Shown: positions 17,006 through 22,674 of the stretch, one piece after another
How the letters are laid out: every line of letters begins with the position of its first letter
How positions within the stretch are numbered: position 1 is the stretch's first letter
Assembly (NCBI GenBank): GCA_028821235.1
Contig: JAPPGV010000089.1
Location: forward strand, 1-64,000
Reading direction: 5' to 3'
DNA: 64,000 nucleotides
Origin: a bacterium
GTDB lineage: Bacteria > Actinomycetota > Acidimicrobiia > Spongiisociales > Spongiisociaceae
Position numbers and translations under genes: made by a program
The notes under the pieces: model-generated
What the model saw: the letters and a program-made list of their open reading frames with translations, nothing else
Database searches by the model: none
Told to the model about the DNA's origin: nothing

Positions 17006-17997
17006 GCACGGTGCCCATCCCATCCAGGACCGGCCCGAGCGTCACTGTCCTGACCGGCTTCCTGGGCGCCGGGAAGACCACCCTCGTGAACCACATTCTC
17101 TCGACGGACCACGGCCGCCGTATCGCGGTGATAGTGAACGAGATGGGTGAGATCGGGATCGACGGCGATCTCATCGTCTCCTCTGACGAGGAGGTGATCG
17201 AGATGGCCAACGGGTGTGTCTGCTGCACCCTGTCGGTTCGCAACGACCTCACGGCCACGATCCGGAAGCTGCTGGCCCGCCCGGAGCCGCCCGACTACGT
17301 GGTCATCGAGACCAGCGGAGTGGCCGATCCGGTGCCGGTCACCCAGGCGCTCTTCGTGGACGAACTGTCCGATCGCATCGCGGTCGACGGGATCGTGACC
17401 ATGGTCGACGCCAAGCACGTGGACGCCCACCTGGACGCGTTCGGTCCCGACCGTCGCGATAGTCGGGTGGTGGACCAGATCCTGTCCGCCGACCGGATCG
17501 TGATCAACAAGACGGATCTGGTCGGGCCGGACGCCTTGCGGAGGACAGAGGCCCGGATCGGTGAGTTCAACAGCACCGCGCCGGTCATCAGATCGAGCTA
17601 TTCCAGGGTGGATCCGGATGAGATTCTCGGGATCGAGGCCTTCGGCGGATCGGCGGCGTCGACAGACGGCGGGTTCTTTGAGGACACCTATGTGCCCTCC
17701 GGCGATCCGGGCATCGAGGCCATCAGCATCGAGGTCGACGGCGAGTTGGACGAGGCGATGCTGAGGGGCTGGCTCGAGAACCTCACCGAGGCGCGATCAG
17801 CCGACATCTACCGGATGAAAGGCATCCTCGCCGTGGCCGGGCGCCCCCGCCAGACCATCCTGCAGGGAGTCCATCGACTCTTCGAGATCTATCCCGGCGG
17901 GCGATGGTCGGGCAGCCGTGGCAGCCGACTGGTCTTCATCGGTCGTGACCTCGATCACCGCATGTTGCGGTCCGGTCTGGAAGGCTGCCGCGCCTGA
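17002..17997 (+). CDS. CobW/G3E family GTPase (putative metallochaperone)
   Basis: GTP-binding protein of the G3E family, 331 aa. It shows the P-loop GFLGAGKT (19-26), the metal-binding GCVCC with C72/C74/C75 in the CxCC pattern, the ETSGVADP switch region and the NKTD guanine-specificity motif. The C-terminal CobW domain is present in short form. G3E proteins insert or traffic metals such as Zn, Co or Ni. Here it lies between the 2Fe-2S and molybdopterin subunit genes with 4-bp and 1-bp overlaps, so a role in maturing this hydroxylase or its metal supply is a reasonable inference. Confidence 0.9.
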   Translation: MSTVPIPSRTGPSVTVLTGFLGAGKTTLVNHILSTDHGRRIAVIVNEMGEIGIDGDLIVSSDEEVIEMANGCVCCTLSVRNDLTATIRKLLARPEPPDYVVIETSGVADPVPVTQALFVDELSDRIAVDGIVTMVDAKHVDAHLDAFGPDRRDSRVVDQILSADRIVINKTDLVGPDALRRTEARIGEFNSTAPVIRSSYSRVDPDEILGIEAFGGSAASTDGGFFEDTYVPSGDPGIEAISIEVDGELDEAMLRGWLENLTEARSADIYRMKGILAVAGRPRQTILQGVHRLFEIYPGGRWSGSRGSRLVFIGRDLDHRMLRSGLEGCRA

Positions 17998-20321
17998 TGG
18001 GAGTTCGCTCGCAGTTGGACACGAAGGTTCGCGACCGCGCGGCCCACGCGCGCGGCGTCGGCGCCTCACCGCCGCGTCCTGATGCCCCGCTCAAGGTGCT
18101 GGGCCGCTTCGCCTACGCCTCGGACCTCCACATAGACGGCATGCTGTGGGGCGCCACGGTCAGGAGTCCGCACCCGAGGGCACGCATCCTGGGTGTCGAC
18201 ATCGGCCAGGCCCTGGCGATCCGGGGGGTTGCCACCGTGCTGACCGCCGAGGACGTGCCCGGACACCGTTTCTACGGCATCAAGGTGGCTGACCAGCCCG
18301 TCCTGGCCGCCCACGAAGTCCGGTACGTGGGGGAGCCGGTGGCGATCGTGGCCGCCGACCATCCCGAGACGGCCCGTAGGGCGGTCGAGGCCGTCACCGT
18401 CGAGTACGAGGTGCAGGCGCCCCTGACCGATCCTGAATCCTCCCTGGCAGGGGACGGGGATCCGATCGACCCGGGCGGGAACGTGGCGCGGCACGTTCGC
18501 ATCCGCCACGGGGACGTTGCAGCGGCTCGCTCGCGGGCAGAGATCGTCATCGAAGCCGAGTACCGCTCCGGGGTCCAGGATCCGGCCTTCCTGGGCCCGG
18601 AAGCCGGTCTGGCGGTGCCGGACGGGAGCGGCGGCATCGACCTGTACGTGGCGGCGCAGTGGATCCACGACGACCGGCGCCAGGTGGCAGCCGCTCTCGG
18701 GCTGGATCCGGGCATGGTGCGCCTGACGCTGAGCGGGGTAGGCGGTGCGTTCGGGGGCCGGGAGGATCTGTCGGTCCACATCCATGCCTGCATGCTGGCG
18801 CTGCGGATGGGCCGTCCCGTCAAGATGTCCTACAACCGGGAGGAGTCCTTCGTCGGCCACGTCCATCGGCACCCCTCGCGGATCCGGGTGGAGTTGGGCG
18901 CCCGCCGGGACGGAACCCTGGTCTACTCCAAGGTGAGGCTCCTGCTGGACGGAGGCGCCTACACGTCCACCTCGCAGATCGTCATCGCCAACGCCTCCTA
19001 CTTCGCCGCCGGCGCCTACGCCGTCGACCACGTCGAGATCGACGGCTACGCCGTCTACACCAACAACCCTCCCCGCGGCGCCATGCGCGGCTTCGGGGCA
19101 GTCCAGGCCTGCTACGCCATCGAATCGGCCATGGACCGCCTCGCGGGGGAACTGGACATGGACGCGGTGGAACTGAGGATCCGTAATGCCATCCAGGCGG
19201 GAGACCTCCTACCCACCGGACAGGTGATTGACGGCCCCGCCCCAACCCGCGAACTCCTCGATCATCTGCGCAGTCTTCCCCTGCCCCCCAAGCGTCCTGC
19301 GGCAGGCGAGGACCTGAGGCGGCTGCCCGGCGGCGTGGGCAATACCACCCACGGGGAGGCGGTGGTCCGGGGGGTCGGCTACGCCCTCGGGATGAAGGCG
19401 ATCGGCTTCTCGGGAGGCGTGGACGACATCTCCACGGCGCGAGTGTCGGTCTCGGTTGCAGGCGGCCGGCCCGTGGCGGAGGTCTACAGCGCCGCCTCGG
19501 AATGCGGGCAGGGCATCGTGGCGGTCCAGGCCCAGATAGTGCGCACCGAACTGGGCATCGACTCGGTGACGGTCCGGCCCGCCGACACTGACATCGGGGA
19601 CGCCGGCTCGTCGGCGGCCTCCCGCCAGACCTGGATGACCGGGGGAGCGGTCGAGGGCGCCTGCCACGGCGTGCGCGAGCGGATCCTCGAGCGGGCCGCC
19701 CGGCGCCTCGGTTGCTCTCCGCGAGACCTGGCTCTCACTCCCCACGGGGTCACGGTTCCCGGCAAGGGGGAGGCTCTCGTTGGTCTTGCCGACATCCTCG
19801 GCCATGACACGATCGAGCACACCTTCGTGTACCACCACCGGCCTACCGAGCCCATCGACGACGTCCGGGGCCAGGGCAACGCCCACATCGCCTTCGCCTA
19901 CGCCGCCCACCGGGCGGTGGTCGACGTGGACACCGAGCTGGGTCTGGTCCGGGTGGTCGAGCTGGCCACCGCCCAGGATGTGGGGAGAGCCATGAACCCC
20001 CAAGCCGTCGAGGGCCAGATCGAAGGCGGTTCCGCCCAGGGTCTCGGCCTCGCCCTGCTGGAGGAGGTCCAGGTCGAGGACGGCTTCGTGAAGAACGCTT
20101 CCTTCACCGACTACCTGGTCCCGACCATCCTCGACATGCCTCCCATGAACGTCCGGCTCTTCGAGTTCCCCCATCCCGACTCCCCATACGGGCTCAACGG
20201 GGTAGGGGAGCCGCCCACGCTGTCCTCCACCCCGGCCATCGTCAACGCCCTGCGCAACGCCACCGGCCTCGACCTGCCAAGGGTCCCGGTCCGACCAACC
20301 GATCTGATCTCGTCGTTCTAG
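17997..20321 (+). CDS. Xanthine dehydrogenase-family molybdopterin-binding large subunit
   Basis: Catalytic subunit of the molybdenum hydroxylase, 774 aa. It begins with the a/b-hammerhead domain (LKVLGRFAYASDLHIDGMLWG). The molybdopterin domain follows with GGAFGGRED, the substrate-pocket PPRGAMRGFGAVQ and QASECGQG-like SAASECGQGIVAVQ. Near the C-terminus the GVGEPP motif holds the catalytic glutamate. The RGAMRGFG pocket resembles xanthine/purine-type hydroxylases rather than form I CO dehydrogenase, which has an AYRCSFR loop. The substrate is therefore more likely a purine or other N-heterocycle, but this is inference. ATG 17997 overlaps the GTPase stop by one base. Confidence 0.92.
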   Translation: MGVRSQLDTKVRDRAAHARGVGASPPRPDAPLKVLGRFAYASDLHIDGMLWGATVRSPHPRARILGVDIGQALAIRGVATVLTAEDVPGHRFYGIKVADQPVLAAHEVRYVGEPVAIVAADHPETARRAVEAVTVEYEVQAPLTDPESSLAGDGDPIDPGGNVARHVRIRHGDVAAARSRAEIVIEAEYRSGVQDPAFLGPEAGLAVPDGSGGIDLYVAAQWIHDDRRQVAAALGLDPGMVRLTLSGVGGAFGGREDLSVHIHACMLALRMGRPVKMSYNREESFVGHVHRHPSRIRVELGARRDGTLVYSKVRLLLDGGAYTSTSQIVIANASYFAAGAYAVDHVEIDGYAVYTNNPPRGAMRGFGAVQACYAIESAMDRLAGELDMDAVELRIRNAIQAGDLLPTGQVIDGPAPTRELLDHLRSLPLPPKRPAAGEDLRRLPGGVGNTTHGEAVVRGVGYALGMKAIGFSGGVDDISTARVSVSVAGGRPVAEVYSAASECGQGIVAVQAQIVRTELGIDSVTVRPADTDIGDAGSSAASRQTWMTGGAVEGACHGVRERILERAARRLGCSPRDLALTPHGVTVPGKGEALVGLADILGHDTIEHTFVYHHRPTEPIDDVRGQGNAHIAFAYAAHRAVVDVDTELGLVRVVELATAQDVGRAMNPQAVEGQIEGGSAQGLGLALLEEVQVEDGFVKNASFTDYLVPTILDMPPMNVRLFEFPHPDSPYGLNGVGEPPTLSSTPAIVNALRNATGLDLPRVPVRPTDLISSF

Positions 20322-20404: not shown

Positions 20405-20842
20405 TTAGCCGACGTCTAGGAGCGGGTTGTGCCATCGCAGTCCTGGGAAGCGGGCGAAGTCACCGTCGTTGGAGTGGACCTGGGCTTGGTGTTCGATGGC
20501 CAGCGCGGCGATGTGGGCGTCGGTGACGAGGTTCCCGCCCACGCCGACGGCGGCCAGCAAGTTGCGGAAGATGGCGAGGTGCTGAGTGCCCGGATTCAAC
20601 GGAGTGACGCTGGATGAGCGGAACCACTTGGCCACGAGGTCGGCCGCGTGCTCTGGTGCCGCCGGGTCGCGCAGCACGGCGGGATGGGTAAGCAGCCGTA
20701 CGAACCCTGTCGCCACGAGCCAAGGAACCCCTACTCGCTCGGTTCCGTTCACCAAGTCCTCCCACCACCGGCGTGCCGGCTGGTGCAGCGGCGCGCCGGC
20801 GGCGTGGGCGTACACGAGCAAGTTCAGGTCTGGGACGATCAC
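20405..20842 (-). CDS. vapC: VapC-family PIN-domain toxin (TIGR00028-like)
   Basis: PIN-domain toxin of 145 aa. Acidic residues D5 (MIVPDLNLLVYAH), D108 (LVTDAHIAALA) and the D126/D128 pair (SNDGDFARFPGLRW) match the actinobacterial TIGR00028 VapC subgroup, in which the FARFPGLRW ending is characteristic. Predicted activity is Mg-dependent RNA cleavage. Start ATG 20842 overlaps the antitoxin stop, the normal order of antitoxin first. Confidence 0.9.
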   Translation of the reverse strand: MIVPDLNLLVYAHAAGAPLHQPARRWWEDLVNGTERVGVPWLVATGFVRLLTHPAVLRDPAAPEHAADLVAKWFRSSSVTPLNPGTQHLAIFRNLLAAVGVGGNLVTDAHIAALAIEHQAQVHSNDGDFARFPGLRWHNPLLDVG

Positions 20843-21096
20843 TGCGCCTGCGGGCCGGGGAATCCGCCGACCTCGAGCGAGTCGTTGAGTTGGTTGAGTC
20901 GCATCGGATCGACGCCGGGCCTGAACCCGCTCGGGTAGGGATCGACTAGGTAGCGCGGCGCGGTCTCGACGAGCGCAGGGGACAGGCCCCGTCTCAAGGT
21001 GTCGTTGACCACCTTCTTGAACGGCTGGTCTGTGCGCTGGGCCTGTTCCTTGAGGGCATCAGCCAGATCGTCATCAAGAGTCAGAGTCGTACGCAT
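20839..21096 (-). CDS. vapB: VapB-type ribbon-helix-helix antitoxin
   Basis: Antitoxin of 85 aa with the N-terminal RHH signature MRTTLTLDDDLADALKEQA and a QPFKKVVNDTLRRGL helix. The C-terminal half (DPYPSGFRPGVDPMRLNQLND) is the expected toxin-neutralising tail. It lies directly upstream of vapC with a 4-bp overlap, and its upstream region carries inverted repeats that could be its operator. Confidence 0.88.
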   Translation of the reverse strand: MRTTLTLDDDLADALKEQAQRTDQPFKKVVNDTLRRGLSPALVETAPRYLVDPYPSGFRPGVDPMRLNQLNDSLEVGGFPGPQAQ

Positions 21097-21224: not shown

Positions 21225-22379
21225 CTAGCGGCGGCGTAGTTGTTTGATCCGCCGGGCGGCTGGGGTCCATAGCCACTCGGGTTCGGTGAACCGGCGATGG
21301 TCCTCGCCGGGCAACCCCAAGGGGTCGTAGTAGCTCTTGTCGGTGTTCTTGCGCAGATAGCTTGTTCGCCGCAGCACCTTCAGGGAGGCATAGATCGTCC
21401 CCTTGTGGGTCCAGCCCTGGCGCTGGTAGTTCCAGTTATCGGGCGCCAGGTGCTGCGCTTCGCTGAAGTACCGCCAAGCGCGTTCGCTGTCGCCCACCGA
21501 CTCGAAGTGCAGCGCCAGCTTGAACGTCGCCTCCGCCAACCGTAGGTCGTCATCGACGGGCTTGAGCCGCTCGGCTAGTTCCTCGCTGGACCAGACATGC
21601 TCGCTGTCGGCTCCCTTGTCGATCCAGTCGCGAATGGCCCGGGCGAATGCGTCGTCGCCCACGCGGACCTTGCCGAGGCCGAACCTGATGGTCGTGTGAG
21701 CGGGGTACGTCCCCTCGTTGCTACGGACGATGCGCCCGTCCTCGTCTATCCACGCGGCTGACGGCACGCTCACCCAGCCGAACAGCGAGCTGATCTGATG
21801 GGTCGGGTCGATGACGCACCGGTAGGTCGGCGAGGCCCGGTCGAACCATTTGTCCACCACGGCGGGTCCGCCCGAGTCCTGCGCCACGCTGATCAACTCG
21901 AACCGGTCCGGACCGATCGATTCGTACAGATCCTGCCAGTCCGGCAGGCTGAAGCGGCACCCTCACCATGAGGACCAGGTGAACAGCACCACCTTGCGCC
22001 CCCGCAAGTCCGAGAGACTCAACGTGTTGCCGTTCCGCTCGGTCACCTCGAAGTCCGGGGCGATGGCGCTCTCAAGCCCGGCGCGACGGACCTCGGGCAC
22101 CGAGCCGAGGCTCCAGACATCGCCGTCACGGGCGTACTTCTGGCCGATCCTGTCCGCGAATCCCGAGTAGCAGAACCAGACCCAGTCGTCGGCGTCCGCG
22201 ATCCACTCCTCACGCTTGTCCGCCGGCAGCGGTACGCACAAATCGCCCAGGCAGGCGCCCTCCGGCTTCATCTGCCAGCCGGTGGCGCGCGGGAGTTCGT
22301 CCATCCGCACCCACAGCGCTCCCGCGGGGTCGGTCCGCCGGGCGACCTGGTTCGTCTTGCCGTTTACGAGGATGATCAT
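21225..22379 (-). CDS. Redoxin (thioredoxin/TlpA-like) selenoprotein with in-frame TGA = Sec139
   Basis: Reads as one 384-residue protein if TGA at 21963-21965 (minus) is selenocysteine. Start ATG 22379 has GGAG 5 bp upstream. Residues ~1-100 form an N-terminal domain with CxxxxC (GACLGDLC). A redoxin core follows, DFEVTERNGNTLSLSDLRG then VVLFTWSSW-U-GCRFSLPDWQ, placing U139 exactly at the redox-active position with resolving C141 (UxC). Beyond the TGA the same frame continues with LISVAQDSGG and a C-terminal TPR-like helical region to the TAG at 21225. There are no other stops or frameshifts. A SECIS-like hairpin lies 20 nt after the TGA. The alternative, a nonsense-mutated pseudogene, fits poorly with the intact downstream frame and the position of the TGA. 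Predicted role: thiol-disulphide or peroxide reduction. Confidence 0.82.
21932..21948 (-). ncRNA. Bacterial SECIS-like hairpin for Sec139
   Basis: On the minus strand CCTGCC-GGACT-GGCAGG forms a perfect 6-bp stem with a 5-nt loop starting GG. An adjoining CAG/CTG pairing extends it past a 2-nt bulge. Twenty nucleotides separate the UGA from the loop, within the 16-37 nt expected for bacterial SECIS elements, and a G lies in the first two loop positions as required for SelB recognition. It overlaps coding sequence, as bacterial SECIS elements do. Confidence 0.75.
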
Positions 22380-22674
22380 GCTTGCTCCGCGAGAGCCGGC
22401 TCGCCCGGCCAGTTGAGCGCTTCGCCGTGCGTCAGGCTCCATTGGTACCTGACCGTAGTGCTCGCCGGCTACGAAGGCTATTGGCCATGGGCGGCCATCA
22501 CGGACCGCTACGGGTTGGAGATGCGGCGTTCGTTTGCCTACGACCGGGTGTGCCAGGGACGGACCGCGCCCGGTCGCGAGGGTGATCGGAAGCCCGGTGA
22601 TTCGGGCGGGGCAGTCCTATTGGTACCGTGCGGACCCGCTCGGGAGTGCCGAGGGGGTGATTCTCGTAGAGGGG
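22380..22674. other. Divergent intergenic region between selenoprotein and lipoprotein genes
   Basis: About 295 bp that should contain promoters in both directions. A short rightward frame (from about 22413) encodes a Trp/Tyr-rich stretch I do not recognise (around LAGYEGYWPWAAITDRYG). It could be a gene remnant or the out-of-frame start of the lipoprotein leader. No repeat or RNA gene is seen. Confidence 0.4.

Follow-up and report, generated by a model that had tools for sequence, protein, structure and literature searches.

The window, by which we mean the whole stretch of 64,000 nucleotides that was analysed, contains a minus-strand reading frame that runs from an ATG at 22442 to a stop codon at 21227-21225 and is interrupted solely by a TGA at 21965-21963. 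A short hairpin follows this TGA. The features of the region are as follows.

21225..22379, minus strand: predicted selenoprotein gene, from the ATG at 22379 to the stop at 21227-21225, with the TGA read as Sec
22385..22388, minus strand: GGAG, a likely ribosome-binding site judged from the sequence, 5 nt before the ATG at 22379
21963..21965, minus strand: in-frame TGA, the predicted Sec codon of a W-U-G-C-R motif, conserved among homologues
21932..21948, minus strand: putative SECIS hairpin with a six-pair stem (21948-21943 with 21937-21932) and the apex between the arms, from sequence and covariation
21939..21942, minus strand: apex G-G-A-C, in which 21942 and 21939 form a covarying closing pair around a two-base loop (21941-21940)
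21938, minus strand: bulged U between the apex and the 3' stem arm (the T of a Trp codon), as follows from the pairing
20839-21096: small 85-aa frame with no Pfam match, which the PIN-domain gene follows directly
20405-20842, minus strand: PIN-domain protein (53 bits)
17997-20321, plus strand: aldehyde oxidase/xanthine dehydrogenase-like large subunit (MoCoBD_1, MoCoBD_2, Ald_Xan_dh_C)

The 85-aa frame and the PIN-domain gene, both downstream of the selenoprotein gene, are likely a toxin-antitoxin pair of the VapBC type.

The selenoprotein gene more likely starts at ATG 22379, which we chose because the homologues begin there and a GGAG stands just upstream. Read from this ATG through the TGA, the frame has 384 codons and places the predicted selenocysteine at position 139; the longer alternative from ATG 22442 would give 405 aa and Sec160. 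The predicted protein has an AhpC-TSA domain (62.9 bits versus the Pfam cut-off of 26) and a U-G-C motif at the active site, within W-U-G-C-R, and its Cys43 and Cys48 are invariant in alignment A3. A structure model for which the window protein was combined with 32 Cys homologues had a mean pLDDT of 86.3 and a pTM of 0.84. In this model residue 139 is immediately N-terminal to a helix (140-155), and the top-ranked solved folds were 3kcm_B, 4nmu_D and 1su9_B (115-116 alignment columns, rmsd 1.3-1.9). The redoxin part of the model resembles the structures of ResA/TlpA-like thiol-disulfide oxidoreductases, which have a C-x-x-C motif, whereas the window protein has U-x-C and extra N- and C-terminal parts. 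The modelled fold suggests a redox role through the Sec/Cys pair.

The best NCBIfam match of the protein was NF041054 (WAxxUGC_long, ResA-like WAxxUGC motif-containing protein; 266.6 bits, residues 24-328). With about 266 bits it lies below the curated cut-off of 300 and is not filed as a member, and its motif, W-S-S-W-U-G-C, has S where the family name has A. All 16 members of alignment A2 match NF041054 at E≤0.001. A UGC-containing Prx-like selenoprotein (pfam00578) is listed in Table 2 of PMC2398784 and in part of the review PMC9312934, and one entry of PMC13188914 is a UGC-containing TlpA family. Compared by description, the window protein shares with the Prx-like type the AhpC-TSA domain and the U-G-C motif, and it is set apart by its N-terminal region, which is conserved and contains two Cys, and by its helical C-terminal part. 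Searches of the open-licence literature found nothing for WAxxUGC, and nothing on Acidimicrobi with selenocysteine and selenoprotein. Judged by its sequence, the protein is a ResA/AhpC-TSA-like redoxin with a U-G-C motif, which is a published selenoprotein type; what is new here is a member of that type, and its element is ordinary in kind.

On the minus strand the TGA is followed by 14 nt, CCTGCC (21948-21943), GGACT (21942-21938) and GGCAGG (21937-21932). The initial annotation had proposed CCTGCC-GGACT-GGCAGG as a SECIS-like hairpin, and we confirmed it at 21948-21932, where 20 nt separate the TGA from the loop. As first drawn, the loop has G in its first two positions (21942 and 21941) and its apex lies 20 nt after the UGA, in agreement with the rule for bacterial SECIS elements that had been invoked (loop 16-37 nt from UGA, G in the first two loop positions). 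The five loop bases were read correctly, and they are better drawn as a closing G-C pair, a two-base loop (G-A here) and a 3' bulged U. We also counted similar hairpins elsewhere. In this GC-rich window they follow 53 of 1556 TGAs (3.4%), including 2 of the 41 that are flanked on each side by 100 or more open codons, and they occur at 227 of 6000 random positions (3.8%). When the TGA had to be flanked on each side by 40 or more open codons, those with this type of hairpin were the selenoprotein site and three with five-pair stems. Rfam had no family for the hairpin near the site, where the single match was a chance miRNA. Because 3.4% of the window's TGAs have such a hairpin, its presence alone is weak evidence, and the same frequency speaks for the alternative that a Cys-type redoxin gene acquired its TGA by nonsense mutation or sequencing error and that the hairpin is a by-product of the codons chosen for Leu-Pro-Asp-Trp-Gln.

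Homologues bear directly on this alternative. We searched 15 genomes of the family, the window's own included. Nine of them, again including its own, have an orthologue that reaches the site (81-100% identity), with TGA in 9/9; two of these orthologues contain one extra stop, upstream of the ATG aligned with 22379. In a tenth genome (G006) the orthologue is an N-terminal piece only. In the remaining five the search met nothing closer than remote redoxins without a stop (25-39% identity), and such redoxins also occur, in addition or instead, in the nine orthologue genomes and in G006. Counting the own genome, matches were found in 19 of 396 genomes across the phylum (E≤1e-25) and in 116 of 395 across the class (E≤1e-40); in another class, 5 of 39 genomes had matches (E≤1e-20). 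A scan of named genomes, for which the search pattern demanded Cys at the site, gave 46 loci. The 212 loci were reduced to 178 distinct sites, with six yielding no site (L022, L122, L141, L190, L269 and L271) and 28 dropped for being identical over 180 nt around the site. The codon at the site is TGA in 123, TGC in 43 and TGT in 12 (55 Cys forms in all), and the protein is conserved downstream of the TGA in the 123 TGA homologues. In a FastTree phylogeny of 175 of the 178 rows, calculated with the site masked, 49 of 172 inner branches were open and some rows were very long. On this tree the Sec/Cys state changed at least 14 times and the closing-pair state among TGA rows at least 17 times, both figures being rough given the open branches and long rows. 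Six genomes (G187, G127, G495, G729, G621 and G745) have two or three separate family matches each, perhaps paralogous selenoprotein genes. Three metagenome-assembled records titled Bifidobacterium breve (L105, L116 and L117) are possibly mislabelled; on the tree L105 groups with rows titled Acidimicrobiales, and L116 and L117 group with L118, which is titled Actinomycetota.

We compared the pairing in these sequences with a null in which each codon was redrawn among its synonyms according to the gene's own usage (2000 draws). All seven pairs, the six of the stem and the closing pair, are intact in 108 of 123 TGA forms (null mean 14.6, maximum 27), and the remaining 15 miss one pair each, the outermost in 13. 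Sec homologues without any stem, which the initial annotation had regarded as damaging to its proposal, were not seen among them. The closing pair joins 21942 and 21939, the wobble positions of adjacent codons (Pro, then Val, Gly or Asp). These two bases are Watson-Crick partners in 122 of 123 TGA forms (null mean 53.6), as C-G in 76, G-C in 34 and A-U in 12, with A-G in the remaining one. In contrast, the Cys forms have the pair at chance level (24/55, null mean 23.0). When the Pro wobble base was permuted within amino-acid class (5000 permutations), the pair was present in 116 of 117 TGA rows (permuted mean 70.0, maximum 87) versus 15 of 44 Cys rows (mean 13.4). With one row per genus, rows without a genus being told apart by record title, the closing pair is kept in 60/60 TGA forms. 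The Val/Gly rows among these pair in 58 of 58 cases (permuted mean 35.7, maximum 46, 5000 permutations), and the corresponding Cys rows in 15 of 41 (mean 13.1).

Besides the closing pair, three of the seven pairs are free to vary through synonymous codons, all of them in the stem. The pair between the Leu third and Gln first bases is kept in 123/123 TGA forms (null 55.3) and 38/55 Cys forms (null 25.1), and that between the Leu first and Gln third bases in 123/123 (null 94.6) and 48/55 (null 40.5). The outermost pair is present in 110/123 TGA forms (null 94.2) and, at chance level, in 40/55 Cys forms (null 39.9). Double compensatory changes occur in L060 (GGTCCC/GGGACC) and L230 (CCTTCC/GGAAGG), both with an amino-acid change, and in L200 (CTTGCC/GGCAAG), where the change is synonymous. 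Covariation among homologues, which had been proposed as a check, is thus seen for both the stem and the closing pair beyond the codon-preserving null, and because the hairpin is conserved and covaries among relatives, it is raised above chance. The Cys forms have the six-pair stem in 25/55 cases (null 14.5) and all seven pairs in 12/55 (null 6.3, reached in 29 of 2000 draws); since they exceed the null for stem pairs, part of the stem signal reflects codon preference or Sec ancestry. In these alignments it is the closing pair that separates the TGA and Cys sets, and the stem is not cleanly absent from the Cys forms. The twelve Cys forms with seven pairs are L080, L082, L086, L094, L097, L098, L099, L104, L110, L115, L121 and L218, and in some of these Sec may have been replaced by Cys, with the SECIS element left behind as a fossil. 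The first loop base (21941) is G in 123/123 TGA and 53/55 Cys forms, and 21938 is T in 123/123 and 55/55. The invariance of the bulged U is not separate evidence, because the Trp codon keeps this T in the Cys forms too. As delineated by this comparison, the element comprises the stem, the covarying pair that closes it, a G-N loop of two bases and the bulged U.

The hairpin had also been thought to extend by CAG/CTG past a 2-nt bulge. The window sequence does contain this extension, and its folds of 27, 36 and 48 nt show it, but it did not hold as a conserved part: Watson-Crick pairing at its three positions is seen in 49, 26 and 36 of 122 TGA forms, and we rejected it as part of the element since it is kept by a minority of them. 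We considered whether the recoding signal is larger and the 17-nt hairpin merely its tip, given that the window sequence permits a longer lower stem and that two of the lower pairs exceed the null, each in a minority of rows (z 6.2 for the pair kept in 26/122, z 4.0 for that in 36/122). We scanned base pairs from nt 3 to nt 62 (150 shuffles, restricted to pairs that vary in the null), and in the TGA set the closing pair ranked first (z 16.2) and the Leu third/Gln first pair second (z 14.0). The two strongest couplings therefore both fall within the 17-nt hairpin, and a larger signal appears unlikely.

We also folded the sequence by itself. The hairpin was the minimum-energy structure of the 27- and 36-nt pieces, with a stem probability of 1.00, and 89 and 100 of 1000 codon-preserving shuffles, respectively, folded at least as well. 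In the 60-nt piece a different fold won, the stem probability of the hairpin was 0.33, and 464 of 1000 codon-preserving shuffles were as good; with dinucleotide shuffles z was -0.46, and 61 of 200 were as good as the native sequence. Hence, the 60 nt after the TGA fold no better than codon-preserving shuffles, which is literally the outcome that the initial annotation had named as speaking against its hairpin. We consider the 60-nt energy test to be too weak for a hairpin so short and to be outweighed by the covariation, and single-sequence folding, which does not discriminate at 60 nt, was rejected as proof of the hairpin. Across the homologues, the stem probability exceeded 0.5 in 119/122 TGA forms versus 32/55 Cys forms for the 36-nt piece, and in 70/122 versus 16/55 for the 60-nt piece.

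We then looked at the selenocysteine machinery. The window's own genome has a tRNA-Sec (77 bits versus a cut-off of 47; called tRNA-SeC, anticodon tca), and two further tRNA-Sec matches barely over the cut-off were called tRNA-Ser. Its selD (L285, G000:C28, 47800-50500) is over the cut-off and has an in-frame TGA, which is followed by GGCGCA-GGTC-T-TGCGCC, the same architecture as in the redoxin hairpin. Similar hairpins follow the selD TGA in the six relatives viewed, three of which have C instead of the bulged U. One over-cut-off selD match with one TGA is present in every one of the 15 family genomes (7 sites viewed). A profile search did not find selA and selB in the window's own genome. 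Four matches to TIGR00475 were considered as candidates for its selB and rejected, none being over the cut-off; judged by sequence, the top match is IF-2 and the next one LepA. Among the family genomes, selA is over the cut-off in 13/15 and SelB-wing_3 in 13/15, and the misses for both are the own genome and G004, which is 72% complete. In the relative G012, selA and selB lie side by side (L133, 8045-11277). Aligned to L133, the first base of the own contig C69 falls on L133:6588 and the last base of C155 (10032) on L133:11892. Because these contigs end at the flanks of the relatives' selA-selB pair, we infer that the own pair lies in an assembly gap between them. Co-occurrence was assessed in 80 of 95 listed genomes, and selA exceeded its cut-off in 61 of the 63 that carry a TGA form versus 1 of the 17 that carry Cys forms (Fisher p 9e-14, a value that ignores kinship). 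The exceptions are G557 and G050, with TGA and no selA over the cut-off, and G532, with Cys and selA.

With these results the two readings that dispense with a SECIS element can be weighed. For the nonsense mutation or sequencing error it can be said, besides the 3.4% given above, that Cys homologues exist and that 12 of the 55 have all seven pairs. Against it, 123 homologues have TGA at the same codon with the downstream protein kept, the closing pair is above the codon-preserving null only in TGA forms, and TGA forms co-occur with selA; in our view the homologue and selA evidence has already refuted this reading, and we give it next to no probability. The second is that the UGA is translated by another route, such as general suppression or a reassigned code, and that the hairpin has another job, for example in ribosome stalling. 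Selenocysteine insertion at this site is deduced from sequence, which leaves this reading some room, but the genome encodes a tRNA-Sec and a selD whose own TGA is followed by a similar hairpin, Sec and Cys exchange at the active site, and selA co-occurs with the TGA forms, so that we regard it as very improbable. We favour the reading of the hairpin as a bacterial SECIS element for a Sec UGA, with a probability of about 0.96, and not that of a nonsense mutation, because the TGA is conserved, the hairpin covaries, the Cys homologues lack the key coupling and tRNA-Sec and selD of the Sec machinery are present in the genome. On the same grounds, the suggestion of the initial annotation that a random nonsense mutation is the less likely explanation is borne out. 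A suspected broken gene thus becomes a probable selenoprotein gene.

In the proposed mechanism, the hairpin would form within the coding part of the mRNA, a short distance after the UGA, and SelB carrying Sec-tRNA-Sec would bind its apex, that is, the closing pair, the G-N loop and the bulged U. Selenocysteine would then be delivered at the UGA to give a 384-residue redoxin, in which the W-U-G-C motif at the N-terminus of the thioredoxin-fold helix might have a redox role. The element resembles the SECIS elements of E. coli fdhF and Moorella thermoacetica fdhA in being an in-frame hairpin with its loop 16-37 nt after the UGA and G at the apex. In the E. coli element the bulged U lies lower, in the 5' arm, whereas the U of the window follows the apex on the 3' side, a Moorella-like position. 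The bulged base and loop resemble those contacted by SelB in bacterial SECIS elements, where a passage of PMC11881835 describes contacts to bulged bases and the terminal loop. According to a passage in PMC12013277, it is difficult to define which features bacterial SECIS elements have in common. Here, 123 natural variants and 55 Cys controls spell out what the apex appears to require inside a coding sequence, which could make it easier to recognise selenoprotein genes in genomes of this group, where the folding of a single sequence, as here, fails to discriminate.

One apex is missing from the TGA forms. The 62 TGA forms with Leu-Pro-Gly use CCC.GGG in 51 cases, CCA.GGT in 11 and CCG.GGC in none. 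CCG.GGC consists of favoured codons and would also form the closing pair, giving a G-GG-C apex; from codon counts it would be expected to account for ~69% of the Watson-Crick combinations (1137x1422 divided by the four products added together). It is found in 8 of the 35 Leu-Pro-Gly Cys forms (Fisher p 1.6e-4 versus the TGA forms, with rows that are not independent). We tentatively suggest, at somewhat less than even odds, that the SECIS elements of this lineage follow a tight apical grammar of covarying pair, G-N loop and bulged U from which the G-GG-C apex is excluded. If so, this specific apex would be rejected by SelB or through misfolding.
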